The notes beneath the pieces were generated by a model. It did not search any database, had not been told where the DNA came from, and worked only from the letters and a program-made list of their open reading frames with translations. A program made the translations under genes and the position numbers. Of a stretch of DNA of 64,000 nt, positions 9,936-54,492 are shown one piece after another. The number at the start of each line of letters is the position of its first letter. Position 1 is the stretch's first letter. Source of the stretch: Paratrimastix pyriformis (taxonomy: Eukaryota; Preaxostyla; Paratrimastigidae); contig JAPMOS010000028.1 of assembly GCA_027972325.1 (NCBI GenBank), forward strand, positions 1-64,000, read 5' to 3'.

Positions 9936-10855
9936 ATGTCCCGATTTTCCGGACTGATATTGTGCGCAATCTTCGTCCTTGCGAAGGCTGAAGATGTTCC
10001 ATTCGATTTTGGTGACCTTTTTGGCGGCCTTGGACGCGGGCCCGCTCAATGTGAAATGGCATGCAGCGACGGAAGCACACCTTTTGCTCGTCAAGGGCAT
10101 GTTCCATCCCACAACGGGTTTGCCCATCTCATTCAGCATCATTTGGTCACTTCAGCGTCTTCGGGATAGGTGTGGTTCCCCGAAGTATGGCAATCACATT
10201 GACATTCCCCTGTTCGAGTCCTGTTGCAACGACCACGACGGTTTGTATTTTCGCCACAACATTCTCCGAACTCACTTTGGATGTATTTTGGGGGATGCCT
10301 TCAGAGTGCTATGATCGGTGTGGTGCTGATCGGAAGCAATGTGACGCTGCCTTCGAGCAATGCATGCAAGCGAAGTGTGCCGCTGTGTCGGATGTGCTGC
10401 CCAGCAATCCGTTTTCCAACTTGGTCGAAGGAGCCATCACCTCGTGCGGCAGCCTGGCGGGCGTCATGGCCACCACGGTCAAGACCTGGGGATGCTCCGC
10501 CTTCCTGGACTCCCAGGAGGAGGGCGCCTGCCAGTGCCCTGAGGGGGCCACCTTGCAGCGCCGCAAGAGCGAGCAGACCAGCATTTTGGGGATCATTGGC
10601 GAGGCCTTTGTCGAGCGGGCTGCCCAGTCGGGCGGCCTGGGCTCCATGATGCAGGCCGTCCAGGGCCTCAACACCCTGCTGGGCGAAGCCCGGGCCCTCA
10701 AGGCAGCCGAGGAGGCCCAGCAGAAGCTTGGCGTTGGCCCCGAGGGGGCGTCCCCCCGGACACCGACCTCCTCCCCTCCTCCTCCTCCGGGCAGACCCGC
10801 TCGCCCCTTGGTCCCTCCCACCCCAAGCCCCGAAACGGCCCACACCGATCTGTAA
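9936..10855 (+). CDS. Secreted group XII-like phospholipase A2
   Basis: Three exons: 9936-10117, 10170-10240 and 10305-10855, giving 267 residues with consistent phases. The N-terminus (MSRFSGLILCAIFVLAKA) is a signal peptide. The mature protein contains CSDGSTPF, then CGSPKYGN, then the phospholipase A2 active-site motif CCNDHDECYDRCG formed exactly across the second splice junction. Downstream CDAAFEQCMQAKC and FLDSQEEGACQCP match group XII secreted PLA2. The catalytic His of the HD pair is present, unlike in the inactive group XIIB proteins. The enzyme is expected to hydrolyse the sn-2 ester of phospholipids outside the cell or in the secretory lumen, using calcium. After the cysteine-rich core there is a longer helical and Pro-rich C-terminal tail than in animal members. 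It is divergent from the HOOK gene, with 101 bp between start codons. Confidence 0.88.
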
Positions 10856-11138
10856 TGAACGAAACACTGTCCATGTAAGTTTTCGTCCTGTTGAGCCCCA
10901 CCCAGGCCAGCCAGCCACCGACCATGAAGAGAGCAGCACCGGGGGGTGAGGTGGGTGGGTTCGGGGCCATCACATCACCAGGAACGAAAAGCGACGAATC
11001 GGTCGACGCGCCCCTCCGTGGCAGGCGTCCCTCGCGCCGTGTCCCCGTCCGCGCTTTTGGCTCAGCTCTTGGGCACGGGTTGGGCCGGCTCACTGGCGAG
11101 CACCGCTGTTTGCCATCGACGGCCGCGGCAGGGGCCGC

Positions 11139-13823
11139 TCAGGCGAACTGGGCCTCGTAAGCGTGCAGAAACTGGGTGGACCGCTTGACGTCGACGAAGA
11201 GGTCGTACACGCGCCGGATGTCGTCCACATCCACTTCGGTCGACTGGTCTCGGGAGGGGCGGGCACAGGCGGTGGGGCGTGTGGTCAGGACGGACGGAGC
11301 GTGGGGCGCCGTGAGGCAGGGCGCCATGGGGCAGGGCGCCATGGGGCAGGGCGCCATGGGGCAGGGCGGACCTTGCGCTTAGCGGCGACCAGGGCCCCGG
11401 TGGTGATGAGCTGGATGGCGTAGCGGAGGGAGGTGTCCTTGGCGATGGTGGTCAGGAGCTCGAGGGCGTCGTCCGTCACCTCGACATCCTCCTCCTCGCA
11501 CCTGGGGCCCCCCATCATCGGAGGGAGAGGCGTGCGCGTGTCAGTCCTCCGATCGATCGCTCGCTCGCTCGCACAACGCGCTGGGACGGGCAGTGGAAAG
11601 GCCCGCATGCGGTGCGTAGAGGGGATGGCGGGGGATGCGCGCAGGACGCAGGGCCGACCTGATCTTGAGAATCTGGGCCAGCTCGGGCTCGGCGTAGGGG
11701 CGCGTCTGCACGATGAGGAGCCGGTCGAGCAGGTCGATGGGGATGCCGTGCGAGCTGACGTCGCTCGTGCCGCGGATCTTGGTCCGGCCCCGGTTGGTGG
11801 CCAGGATGACGATCGGGGCCATGTCCGACTCGAGGGCCCGGTTGAGGAAGCTGAAGCACTCCATGTCCAGCATGTGCACCTCGTCGATGAACAGCACCTG
11901 CCCCGGGCCACGCCCACGGCCAGAGACACACGGCCATCGTGATATACCCGTGTGTGAGAGAGCGGTCGGTTTGGGTACGGTTCCCGGGGTCGATGTAGGC
12001 ACCGGGAGGTGGGCGGGACGGACCCCAGGGACGAACTCGGCCTTGCCCTCCTCGCGCCACTCGGCCACCTTGCGGTCGATTTGGTCGCGCACCTCGGGCT
12101 TGATCTCCCCGATGTCCCCTGGCGGCGTGTGCGCGCGAGAGAGAGAGCGGCAGGTGAGGGGCACATTCGGTCAAGCGGCGCAAGGCAGGGACGAGGGACG
12201 AGGGACGAGGGACGAGGGACGAGGGGCGAGGGACGAGGGACGAGGGGCGAGGGGCGAGGGGCGAGGGACGAGGGGCGAGGGGCGAGGGGCGAGGGGCGAG
12301 GGGCGAGGGGCGAGGGGCGAGGGGCGAGGGGCGAGGGGCGAGGGGCGAGGGCGAGGGGCGAGGGGCGAGGGGCGAGGGGCGAGGGGCGAGGGGCGAGGGC
12401 GAGGGGCGAGGGGCGAGGGGCGAGGGGCGAGGGGCGAGGGGCGAGGGGCGAGGGGCGAGGGGCAGGGGCTAACACGACGGGCGGACCGGCGAAGAGGGCC
12501 ATGAAGCCGTGGGAGCGGCTGTTGATGACGTCGATGTCGTGCAGGGAAACCACGTGTACGACCTCCTTGCGCTTCTGCAACTCGCCCTCGGGGCACTGCA
12601 CCAACTTCACCTGGACGGTGTGTGTGGGCGGGGTGCGGGCGGGCGGGGCAGGAGATGTTGGGCATGGAGGGGTGACGGGTGGAGGGGAGCGGGGTGGTGG
12701 GGGTCCGGCACTGGACGGCACTGGACGGACGTTGGGGCCCATGGCATCAAAGTCGCGGGCGCGGGTGAAGGCGCGGCCCAGGCGGGAGATGCGCCCAGTC
12801 GATTTGTCAATTGTGATCACGTCCCTGCCCGATCAAAGCCCCCCCGCGCAGCCGGTTGAGGTCGGTGAGCCACCACATCGGCCCGCCGGGACTGGCCAAG
12901 CCTCGTGGGAGAGGTGGGAGAGGAGGAGGGGTGGGGGCCGCAGACCCTGCCTGGATCTTCTCCTTGGTGATCTGCTCGATCATCTTGCTGCCCAGGTCGT
13001 ACTGGGTCTCCATGTCGGTGGTCTTCAGAGTCATCCGGCCGACCTTGGCCCCCTGGGTCCGATGAGGGTCCGGGGTGAGGGTCCGGGGTGAGGGTCCGGG
13101 GTGAGGGTCCGGGGTGAGGGTCCGGGGTGAGGGTCCGGGGTGAGGGTCCGGGGTCCGGGGTGAGGGTGCCGGCGGAGAAGAGCGGTGAAAACCAGTGAGG
13201 AGGCAATGACGTGCAGACCGCCCCAGTGGCAGGCCGGTCGATCTGGATCTCGACCACCTCGCCCTCGATGATCTCGGTCTCCTCCTTGATGCGAACCCCA
13301 ATCGATCTGCATGGGGAGGGTGGGAAAGTGAAACTTATTGTTGAGGGTGCAATAACGAACCTTCTGAAGGCTTGAGTCAGCGCCTCTGTCTTAGACATCT
13401 CCAACGAGAAAACCTCGCTGGCGGCAATCATGGTGAAAGGGGTCTCATGTCCCAAAGCCTGGGCCAAACCTACAGGAGATACAGATGAGAAGCCCATAAC
13501 CCGCCTTCTCTGTGCTCCCAAAACAGACCCATGGCAATGGCTGTCTTGCCGGTGGCGGGCTGGCCAGCGAGAAGCACGGCGCGTCCCGCGATCTTGCCCT
13601 CCTTAATCATCTGGAGCACCACTCCGATAGCTTTCCGAGCGTGAAGTTGGCCGACCATACCCTGCGAATTGACGCGGGGCTCCAGGCCATCATCAAGACC
13701 GAGACCCCAAATATGCGAGTGGGACCCGATCCGGTCGACACGGGTCAGATCTTTTTGTTGGGCCGCAGTCGCGGTGGACACCGGGGTGGTTGCGGCGGCA
13801 GGGGGACTGGGGGTTGTTTGCAT
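11139..13823 (-). CDS. RUVBL2: RuvB-like AAA+ ATPase 2 (reptin)
   Basis: AAA+ ATPase that forms the RUVBL1/RUVBL2 hexamer of INO80, SWR1/TIP60 and R2TP complexes. The start at 13823 (MQTTPSPP) is preferred because the family motif [15 protein letters not shown] follows directly. Walker A is GQPATGKT (Ala where GQPGTGKT is usual), followed by [19 protein letters not shown], the OB-fold insertion domain ([18 protein letters not shown]), Walker [11 protein letters not shown], sensor 1 ILATNRG and the C-terminal lid [20 protein letters not shown]. It ends [13 protein letters not shown] at 11139. Exons follow human RUVBL2 almost residue for residue. Junction examples include KRK|STEV and VPG|VLFID with gtccg donors. 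Introns hold 7-bp and 13-bp satellites. It diverges from CCDC40, with 109 bp between start codons. Confidence 0.95.
12187..12462. repeat. 7-bp CGAGGGG/CGAGGGA satellite (RUVBL2 intron)
   Basis: About 40 copies of a GC-rich heptamer (GGGGCGA, GGGACGA) filling one RUVBL2 intron between the exon encoding MALFAGPP and the next exon, encoding GEIKPEV. Confidence 0.92.
13064..13166. repeat. 13-bp GGTGAGGGTCCGG satellite (RUVBL2 intron)
   Basis: About eight copies of GGTGAGGGTCCGG in the intron upstream (gene sense) of the RUVBL2 exon starting KVGRMTLK. Confidence 0.9.
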
Positions 13824-53649: not shown

Positions 53650-53843
53650 ACTCCCCCCCCCCCCCCCCATCTTCAGGCCGCCAGGCCGCCAGGAGCGAAC
53701 AGCGTCCGTCTTTTTGCGGCAGACATGCTATCAACAATGACGTGAATCGCGCACGATCCTGTGCCCGAGCAGAGCCCAACACGGCGATCGAAGGGGGAGG
53801 GCGGGGGGAAGCGACAATGGGTGGAAGGCGACACCGGGGGGCC

Positions 53844-54492
53844 TCACTTGGGGTTCCGCAGAACAACAATAACAGAATCGCCCCGGAGGAACATCTTGGC
53901 GATGAATCGCTCTTTGTTCACGGGACGGGCACGCTTCTTCCCCTTCCCTGCAGATGGGATAAACATGCGGCGGACCACAAAAATGGAAACAGACCCTTGG
54001 CTGGGAGCTCAACCCAATACTCTCGAACCTAAATGTCCAGAAGGGAGAAATGACCCAGAAGAGAAACCCGTGTGGGAAACGAGCGAATGGATGGAAGAGT
54101 GTTTGTAAGAGAGGAACTGTGAAGGTTGCGCACAAACATTTTCGAGGACCATGTTCATGTGACGATCAAAAGCCTTCACCCGCCCCAACAGCTTGCGGTT
54201 GTTGCGGCAGTTCACCATCACCTAATGGGATGGACGCTGGGTAGTGAACAGAAGAGTGGTGCCTTCGGATCAAACCTGGGTGTGGTCGCGTACACTGGCG
54301 AACAGAACCGACATCGGACCCTGAGTGAAATCCTCCTTGACAGGTGCCGCCTAAGAAGATAGAACAAAAATGCCGAGCAGGGGGGAATCGCCCACAAAAA
54401 TATGGGGTAGAGAGTAAGCTCTACGGTCAGCGGAGAAAAAACACGACCTTGGCATCCTTCTCACCGCCTCGTTGAAGGGAGCGTGAAGCCAT
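53844..54492 (-). CDS. SNRPD2: Small nuclear ribonucleoprotein Sm D2
   Basis: Core Sm ring protein of U1, U2, U4 and U5 snRNPs. Five exons are clear. Exon 1 is 54492-54448 ([15 protein letters not shown]) and exon 2 is 54350-54276 ([20 protein letters not shown], then RDHTQ). Exon 3 starts at 54221 and runs to the codons for MVLEN ([20 protein letters not shown]). A short exon encodes [11 protein letters not shown], and the last exon ([20 protein letters not shown], then [13 protein letters not shown]) ends at the stop at 53844. Both Sm motifs are intact, and the protein is near the usual length (about 107 residues). All four donors (gtcgtg, gtttga, gtttgt, gtctgt) have a pyrimidine at +3, which makes this small gene the cleanest evidence for the local splice-site consensus. 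It is head to head with PAN2. Confidence 0.96.

Follow-up and report, generated by a model that had tools for sequence, protein, structure and literature searches.

Pyrimidine-rich 5′ splice sites and complementary U1 small nuclear RNA genes in Paratrimastix pyriformis

Genes and introns of the window

We have studied the 5′ splice sites (donors) of Paratrimastix pyriformis (Metamonada, Preaxostyla), a free-living protist, using a window of 64,000 nucleotides, the whole stretch of DNA that was analysed (contig JAPMOS010000028.1, positions 1 to 64,000). The 5′ end of U1 small nuclear RNA (snRNA) is very highly conserved, and the usual donor is GTAAGT. An initial annotation of the window had proposed, from about 25 junctions, that GTYYG donors replace GTRAG between 10118 and 54447 (where SmD2 intron 1 begins), owing either to a co-evolved U1 snRNA or to relaxed dependence on U1. 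Four genes were read for junctions, giving nine in RUVBL2, four in SmD2 and one each in PAN2 and EXOSC2.

Introns were placed by protein homology, joining exons, and only GT-AG boundaries were allowed. The spliced RUVBL2 product aligns without gaps to Protein Data Bank entry 7aho_D over query residues 13-460 (739 bits), and that of SmD2 to 1b34_B over query residues 20-112 (E 3e-44); the junctions of all RUVBL2 introns and of SmD2 introns 2 to 4 lie within these alignments of the joined exons. In the following list the slash marks the exon/intron boundary.

11139..13823, minus strand: RUVBL2 gene, spliced open reading frame of 10 exons, 461 amino acids
13470..13528, minus strand: RUVBL2 intron 1, TGG/GTCTGT
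13307..13360, minus strand: RUVBL2 intron 2, AAG/GTTCGT
13053..13218, minus strand: RUVBL2 intron 3, GCG/GTCTGC
12825..12945, minus strand: RUVBL2 intron 4, AGG/GTCTGC
12611..12730, minus strand: RUVBL2 intron 5, AAC/GTCCGT
12119..12486, minus strand: RUVBL2 intron 6, CCG/GTCCGC
11898..12023, minus strand: RUVBL2 intron 7, GGG/GTCCGT
11502..11658, minus strand: RUVBL2 intron 8, CAG/GTCGGC
11244..11371, minus strand: RUVBL2 intron 9, AAG/GTCCGC
53844..54492, minus strand: SmD2 gene, spliced open reading frame of 5 exons, 113 amino acids
54351..54447, minus strand: SmD2 intron 1, AAG/GTCGTG; weaker, lying beyond the block aligned with 1b34_B
54222..54275, minus strand: SmD2 intron 2, CAG/GTTTGA
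54029..54137, minus strand: SmD2 intron 3, AAT/GTTTGT
53948..53994, minus strand: SmD2 intron 4, AGG/GTCTGT
61759..61984, plus strand: PAN2 intron in the exonuclease domain, CCG/GTCCGC; structure alignment with 9qtu_C
52773..52962, plus strand: EXOSC2 intron, GAG/GTGCGC; the sole purine at +3 among the 40 introns of this study

The four SmD2 donors given initially (gtcgtg, gtttga, gtttgt and gtctgt), three of RUVBL2 (gtccgc, gtccgt and gtcggc) and the exceptional gtgcgc of EXOSC2 were recovered exactly. The PAN2 junction derived here (gtccgc) differs from the two PAN2 donors given there. A pyrimidine is found at +3 in 14/15 of the re-derived junctions and GTYYG in 12/15, and the proposed replacement of GTRAG in the window is thus upheld. 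Among the matches listed for RUVBL2, the best named one by identity (79%) is from Paratrimastix eleionoma; the 120 matches listed include no annotated RUVBL2 of P. pyriformis.

Donor sequences at forty introns

As a check on whether the donor pattern extends beyond one local region, the reading was repeated in 200 kb of another contig (C441). The GC content of this sample is 60.4% (its 2,500 N taken as non-GC) and that of the window 68.7%. An initial scan of C441 for coding frames caught mostly tandem repeats and was replaced. Proteins were then recognised in a list of coding-like frames, and introns were viewed only afterwards. Six genes were read (IDH, PSAT, NMT, SRPR, DUS4 and a Rab5-like gene), giving 25 junctions and a total of 40 introns; recognisable genes left unread include an alcohol dehydrogenase and sterol reductase-like and nucleotidyltransferase-like genes. 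The structures used were 1lwd_A (IDH), 4xk1_A (PSAT), 4c2x_A (NMT), 6y32_B (SRPR, in two pieces), 2hei_A (Rab) and 3w9z_A (DUS4). In SRPR the frame shifts within a conserved stretch that has no evident intron (near 3690 of locus L031), where an assembly error is possible.

Every gene piece was aligned to a solved structure except EXOSC2, whose intron was placed against human EXOSC2. Ungapped alignment blocks hold 36/40 junctions, as read by eye from the printed alignments; those outside such blocks are SmD2 intron 1, two introns of Rab and that of EXOSC2. Two further EXOSC2 junctions and one of PAN2 were set aside as ambiguous before counting, and their likely donors also start gtc. Sliding the junctions by up to 6 bases gave no other GT-AG pair with the same product.

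The 40 introns range in length from 44 to 461 and all have GT-AG ends, the only ends considered in placing them. At +3 the donors have C in 32, T in 7, G in one and A in none, and are thus pyrimidine in 39/40, including 25/25 of those from C441. At +4 there are 18 T, 18 C, 3 G and one A; at +5, 35 G, 3 C, one A and one T; and at +6, 22 T, 13 C, 3 G and 2 A. Position −1 is G in 31/40. The donor consensus is therefore G/GU(C>U)(U/C)G(U/C). GTYYG is found in 32/40 donors, and GTRAG, the canonical GURAG of U2-type introns, in 0/40. The U12-type donor is RUAUCCUUU, and no such long donor occurs among the 40 (U11 and U12 RNAs were not searched).

The 36 best junctions were compared with the composition of the intron bodies (C.42, T.25). 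All 36 have C or T at +3 (pyrimidine excess p=5.6e-7, C alone p=2.3e-6) and 32/36 have G at +5 (p=1e-18), with an excess of T at +6 (p=1e-4) and at +4 (p=0.0095); these values are per position and uncorrected, with junctions treated as independent. Positions +7 to +10 resemble the intron background.

Five introns in two of the genes are exactly matched by a public protein that is either annotated or of transcript type. EukProt GAFH01001654.1.p1 lies entirely within the spliced IDH product (401/401 residues) and crosses all three introns, which include the unusual donor GTCACT; we take GAFH01 to be a transcriptome assembly of P. pyriformis. The annotated phosphoserine transaminase of this species is identical to the spliced C441 PSAT over 387 residues, with both introns crossed.

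The genome searched comprises 56.06 Mb in 495 contigs; the published assembly has 56,627,582 bp in 633 scaffolds, with 60.94% GC (PMC10703272, Table 1). Genome-wide, AAGGTCTGT occurs 897 times against 181 in the backward control (about 5-fold), AAGGTRAGT 326 times against 689 (0.47-fold), and AAGGTATGT 81 times against 136, 21 of the 81 coming from one array on contig C465. Our own gene finder run without a donor motif gave noisy introns, the most frequent donors among 208 being GTCCGT (9), GTCTGC (7) and GTCTGT (6). With the motif supplied its results were circular, and only 5 to 11 of the 13 known junctions were recovered; gene finding was therefore excluded from the evidence.

Genes for U1 and the other spliceosomal components

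Loci for U1, U2, U5 and U6 snRNA are all present in the genome. A search with Rfam RF00003 gave eight U1 loci on eight contigs, each aligned over the full positions 1-166 of 166, though at scores under the family cut-off (50.8-60.2 bits, E 4e-13 to 2e-10). All eight start AUACAGAC rather than AUACUUAC and carry ATACAGACC; they open with ATACAGACCTTG where the family has AUACUUACCUGG, and AUACAGACCU stands in place of the RF00003 5′ end AUACUUACCU. The 5′ end of the RNA predicted from these genes is AUACAGACC. Compared with the canonical end there are two substitutions, U5 to A and U6 to G, creating ACAGAC. The initial annotation had predicted ACGGAC; the G at position 6 is indeed found, but position 5 is A and not G in the eight loci. 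These are the two positions that are pseudouridylated in human and yeast U1 (PMC3510501), a modification that A and G no longer allow in P. pyriformis. Loop I of U1 (GATCACACAGG) also differs from the Rfam consensus GAUCAaGAAG.

A genome-wide pattern with positions 5-6 left free (NN) and up to 3 mismatches allowed returned the same eight loci, all with AG; it revealed no ninth locus and no canonical U1 5′ end. The pattern ATACTTACCTG was found 0 times in 56 Mb and 57 times in the backward control. A canonical end followed by CCTT, the continuation seen in these genes, would escape this pattern alone but is covered by the NN pattern.

The U6 box ACAGAG, which the initial annotation had proposed to read, is canonical in 4/4 loci, as part of ACAGAGA (GATACAGAGAAG). 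Seven U5 loci were found, and loop 1 is the canonical GCCTTTTAC in 6/6 read, with the GCCUUUUAC expected of a U2-type spliceosome. There are nine full-length U2 loci, of which four were read. An element cccataa (mostly gtcccataa) lies upstream of 8/8 U1, 4/4 U2, 5/6 U5 and 3/4 U6 loci; the two loci where it was not confirmed, one U5 and one U6, were not viewed in the right orientation. It looks like the proximal snRNA promoter element of this lineage, and because it is common to the snRNA loci the U1 loci look like real snRNA genes. It sits about 55-70 bases before the snRNA start, usually behind a run of T (U1 loci L001-L008, U6 loci L009-L011, U5 loci L035-L039 and U2 loci L042-L045). The sequence ttataa is also present in 2/3 of the U6 upstream regions read.

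A single search with the zf-U1 family did not detect U1C, and its one match (C86:24809-24916, locus L041) resembles WBP4 instead. In the metamonads studied in PMC6679479, U1-associated proteins are described as nearly absent.

Fit of U1 and U6 to the donors

The U1 5′ end of P. pyriformis is complementary to the donors of its genome. It can pair at +3 with 39/40 donors, compared with 1/40 for canonical U1, and at +4 with 18 compared with 4. Over −3 to +6 the mean number of pairs per donor is 6.88 for the organism's own U1 and 5.38 for the canonical RNA; the former makes more pairs at 30/40 donors, the same number at 9 and fewer at one. When all 16 choices at U1 positions 5-6 were ranked by predicted duplex energy with the 40 donors, ACGGAC came first, ACAGAC second and ACUUAC 14th. 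The suggestion of a co-evolved U1 is therefore supported, and we infer that transcripts of the U1 genes carry this 5′ end and recognise the donors in the cell.

With GUCUGU, U1 nucleotides A3 to C8 can form pairs at positions +6 to +1. The ACAGA of U6 can form 5/5 pairs at +2 to +6 with GUCUGU, 4 with GUAUGU and 3 with GUAAGU. The first seven bases of U1 are the same as the AUACAGA of U6, an identity created by the U1 substitutions, and thus one donor, GUCUGU, suits both RNAs.

We consider it highly probable that the introns of P. pyriformis are ordinary U2-type GT-AG introns whose donor code has been rewritten and is matched by a doubly substituted U1. A number of observations weigh against this. 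The junctions were chosen by eye with the claim already known; +5 G is missing from 5/40 donors, and in one donor +3 is a purine. The U1 loci score below the gathering cut-off of RF00003 (69.5 bits), in a search that scored 41 of 992 first-look candidates, and no transcript of U1 was seen. C is as frequent as T at +4, and because A5 of U1 cannot pair with C, ACAGAC fits the +4 C donors poorly; ACGGAC would fit better. In a 264 kb sample donor-like words are not outstanding against backward controls: GGTCTGC ranks 15th of the GGTNNNN words (ratio 1.96), GGTCTGT and GGTCCGT are not among the 15 highest, and the words with the top ratios are unrelated to donors. Codon structure distorts such backward controls. 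Lastly, METTL16-like (L013, contig C332) and SNRNP27K-like (L014, contig C9) genes are present, and yet only 1/40 donors has A at +4; we judge these identities from motifs, and PF05971 spans prokaryotic enzymes too. N6-methyladenosine in U6 is described as generally incompatible with +4 U, and in fungi +4 U is linked to absence of METTL16 and SNRNP27K (PMC10581693).

Instead, U6 or proteins might do most of the reading of the donors, as has been suggested for Entamoeba, with dependence on U1 relaxed and the change in U1 resulting from drift. The full complementarity of GUCUGU to U6 ACAGA would suit this, as would a sole zf-U1 match that looks like WBP4 and not U1C. Entamoeba provides a precedent (PMC13292270, PMC6085484, PMC6018208). 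Drift, however, would hardly fit both altered bases to the donors in 8/8 copies, and U1 of the Bigelowiella nucleomorph is described as retaining its conserved 5′ end though no donor motif exists in the introns there (PMC6461891). In P. pyriformis U1 tracks the donor; this second suggestion of the initial annotation is therefore disfavoured, and we regard it as improbable.

Two other explanations seem to us more improbable still. Introns rich in C could, in the absence of selection, yield C at both +3 and +4, and +4 C is indeed not above the background of the intron bodies; this is hard to reconcile with the uniform pyrimidine at +3, the G at +5, the excess of T at +6 and the flat composition beyond, and it leaves the change in U1 unexplained. 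Equally, the eight loci could be variant or pseudogene copies, a working canonical U1 being missing from the assembly. The published assembly has a k-mer completeness of 94.01% (PMC10703272, Table 1), and a diplonemid has an extra U1 with an altered 5′ end (PMC12621601). Against this, the eight copies lie on eight contigs with intact 5′ ends and snRNA-type upstream elements, no canonical copy was found genome-wide, and the donors fit the eight copies.

How might the rewritten code, with its matching U1, have arisen? An oxymonad donor of GUAUGU type suits U6 better than GUAAGU because it makes 4 pairs rather than 3. An ancestral GUAUGU could have been pulled to GUCUGU by pairing with an immutable U6 ACAGA box; that such pairing was the driving force is a presumption of which we are less sure. 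In this order of events +4 U would come first, A5 of U1 would then restore pairing, and +3 C/U with U1 G6 would be the last step, completing the match. U1 would have followed the donors, and its 5′ end would thereby have come to share seven bases with U6. On balance a little doubtfully, we propose a single-code spliceosome, in which U1, at first recognition, and U6, at its later check, both read positions +2 to +6 of a single donor, GUCUGU. If so, a genome can have its splice-site code set by the U6 box, with U1 following.

Comparison with known systems

The GUUUGUU donors of Entamoeba histolytica likewise carry a pyrimidine at both +3 and +4, with G at +5 and high complementarity to U6; U1 is reported absent there (PMC13292270, PMC6018208, PMC6085484), whereas in P. 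pyriformis it is present and matches. By analogy, Entamoeba U1 may have been overlooked through a changed 5′ end. The GUAUGU donors of the oxymonad Streblomastix and of Saccharomyces share +4 U and +5 G with those of P. pyriformis, but have A at +3 rather than C/U (PMC1501061), and P. pyriformis has no excess of AAGGTATGT. The U1 of Giardia, also a metamonad, is similarly divergent and proposed to pair with unusual donors, but its 5′ end retains ACUUAC (PMC3510501), unlike that of P. pyriformis. The tunicate Fritillaria borealis is reported to keep its U1 5′ end despite massively non-GT/AG introns (PMC13326754).

A survey of Saccharomycotina obtained U1 candidates from 227/230 genomes and 9/10 outgroups, all ACUUACC; it proposed that a change of U1 position 5 to A could compensate +4 U, and reports looking for this and finding none (PMC10581693). 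P. pyriformis U1 has that very change and a second at position 6, and the donors match. An altered U1 also exists in S. specki, a diplonemid of the genus Sulcionema. It too is a natural U1 copy with a changed 5′ end, but it has a C stretch and coexists with canonical U1 (PMC12621601), whereas all of the copies found in P. pyriformis are changed and suit the donors of its genome. Engineered suppressor U1 restores pairing with an altered donor by compensatory change, as here, but is a laboratory construct acting at one site (Zhuang and Weiner 1986, via PMC11732430); the P. pyriformis system is natural and extends to 39/40 introns examined.

We found no report of such a donor or U1 in Paratrimastix among titles and abstract openings, and no paper joining Paratrimastix with snRNA in the literature searched, most subscription papers being outside the scope of both searches. 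The main text of the P. pyriformis genome paper contains none of the terms 'snRNA', 'spliceosom', 'donor' and 'GT-AG' (PMC10703272). The organism offers a natural system for the rewriting of a splicing code and the part of U6 in setting it, and a reason to search again for 'missing' U1 genes. Gene predictors that assume GTRAGT may misplace its introns.

Short tandem repeats, of ccctcgcc, ggaccctcacccc and attcccatgccc types, fill the window introns at 12119-12486 and 13053-13218 and that at 967-1427 of locus L016, and the length of such introns may therefore vary through repeat slippage.

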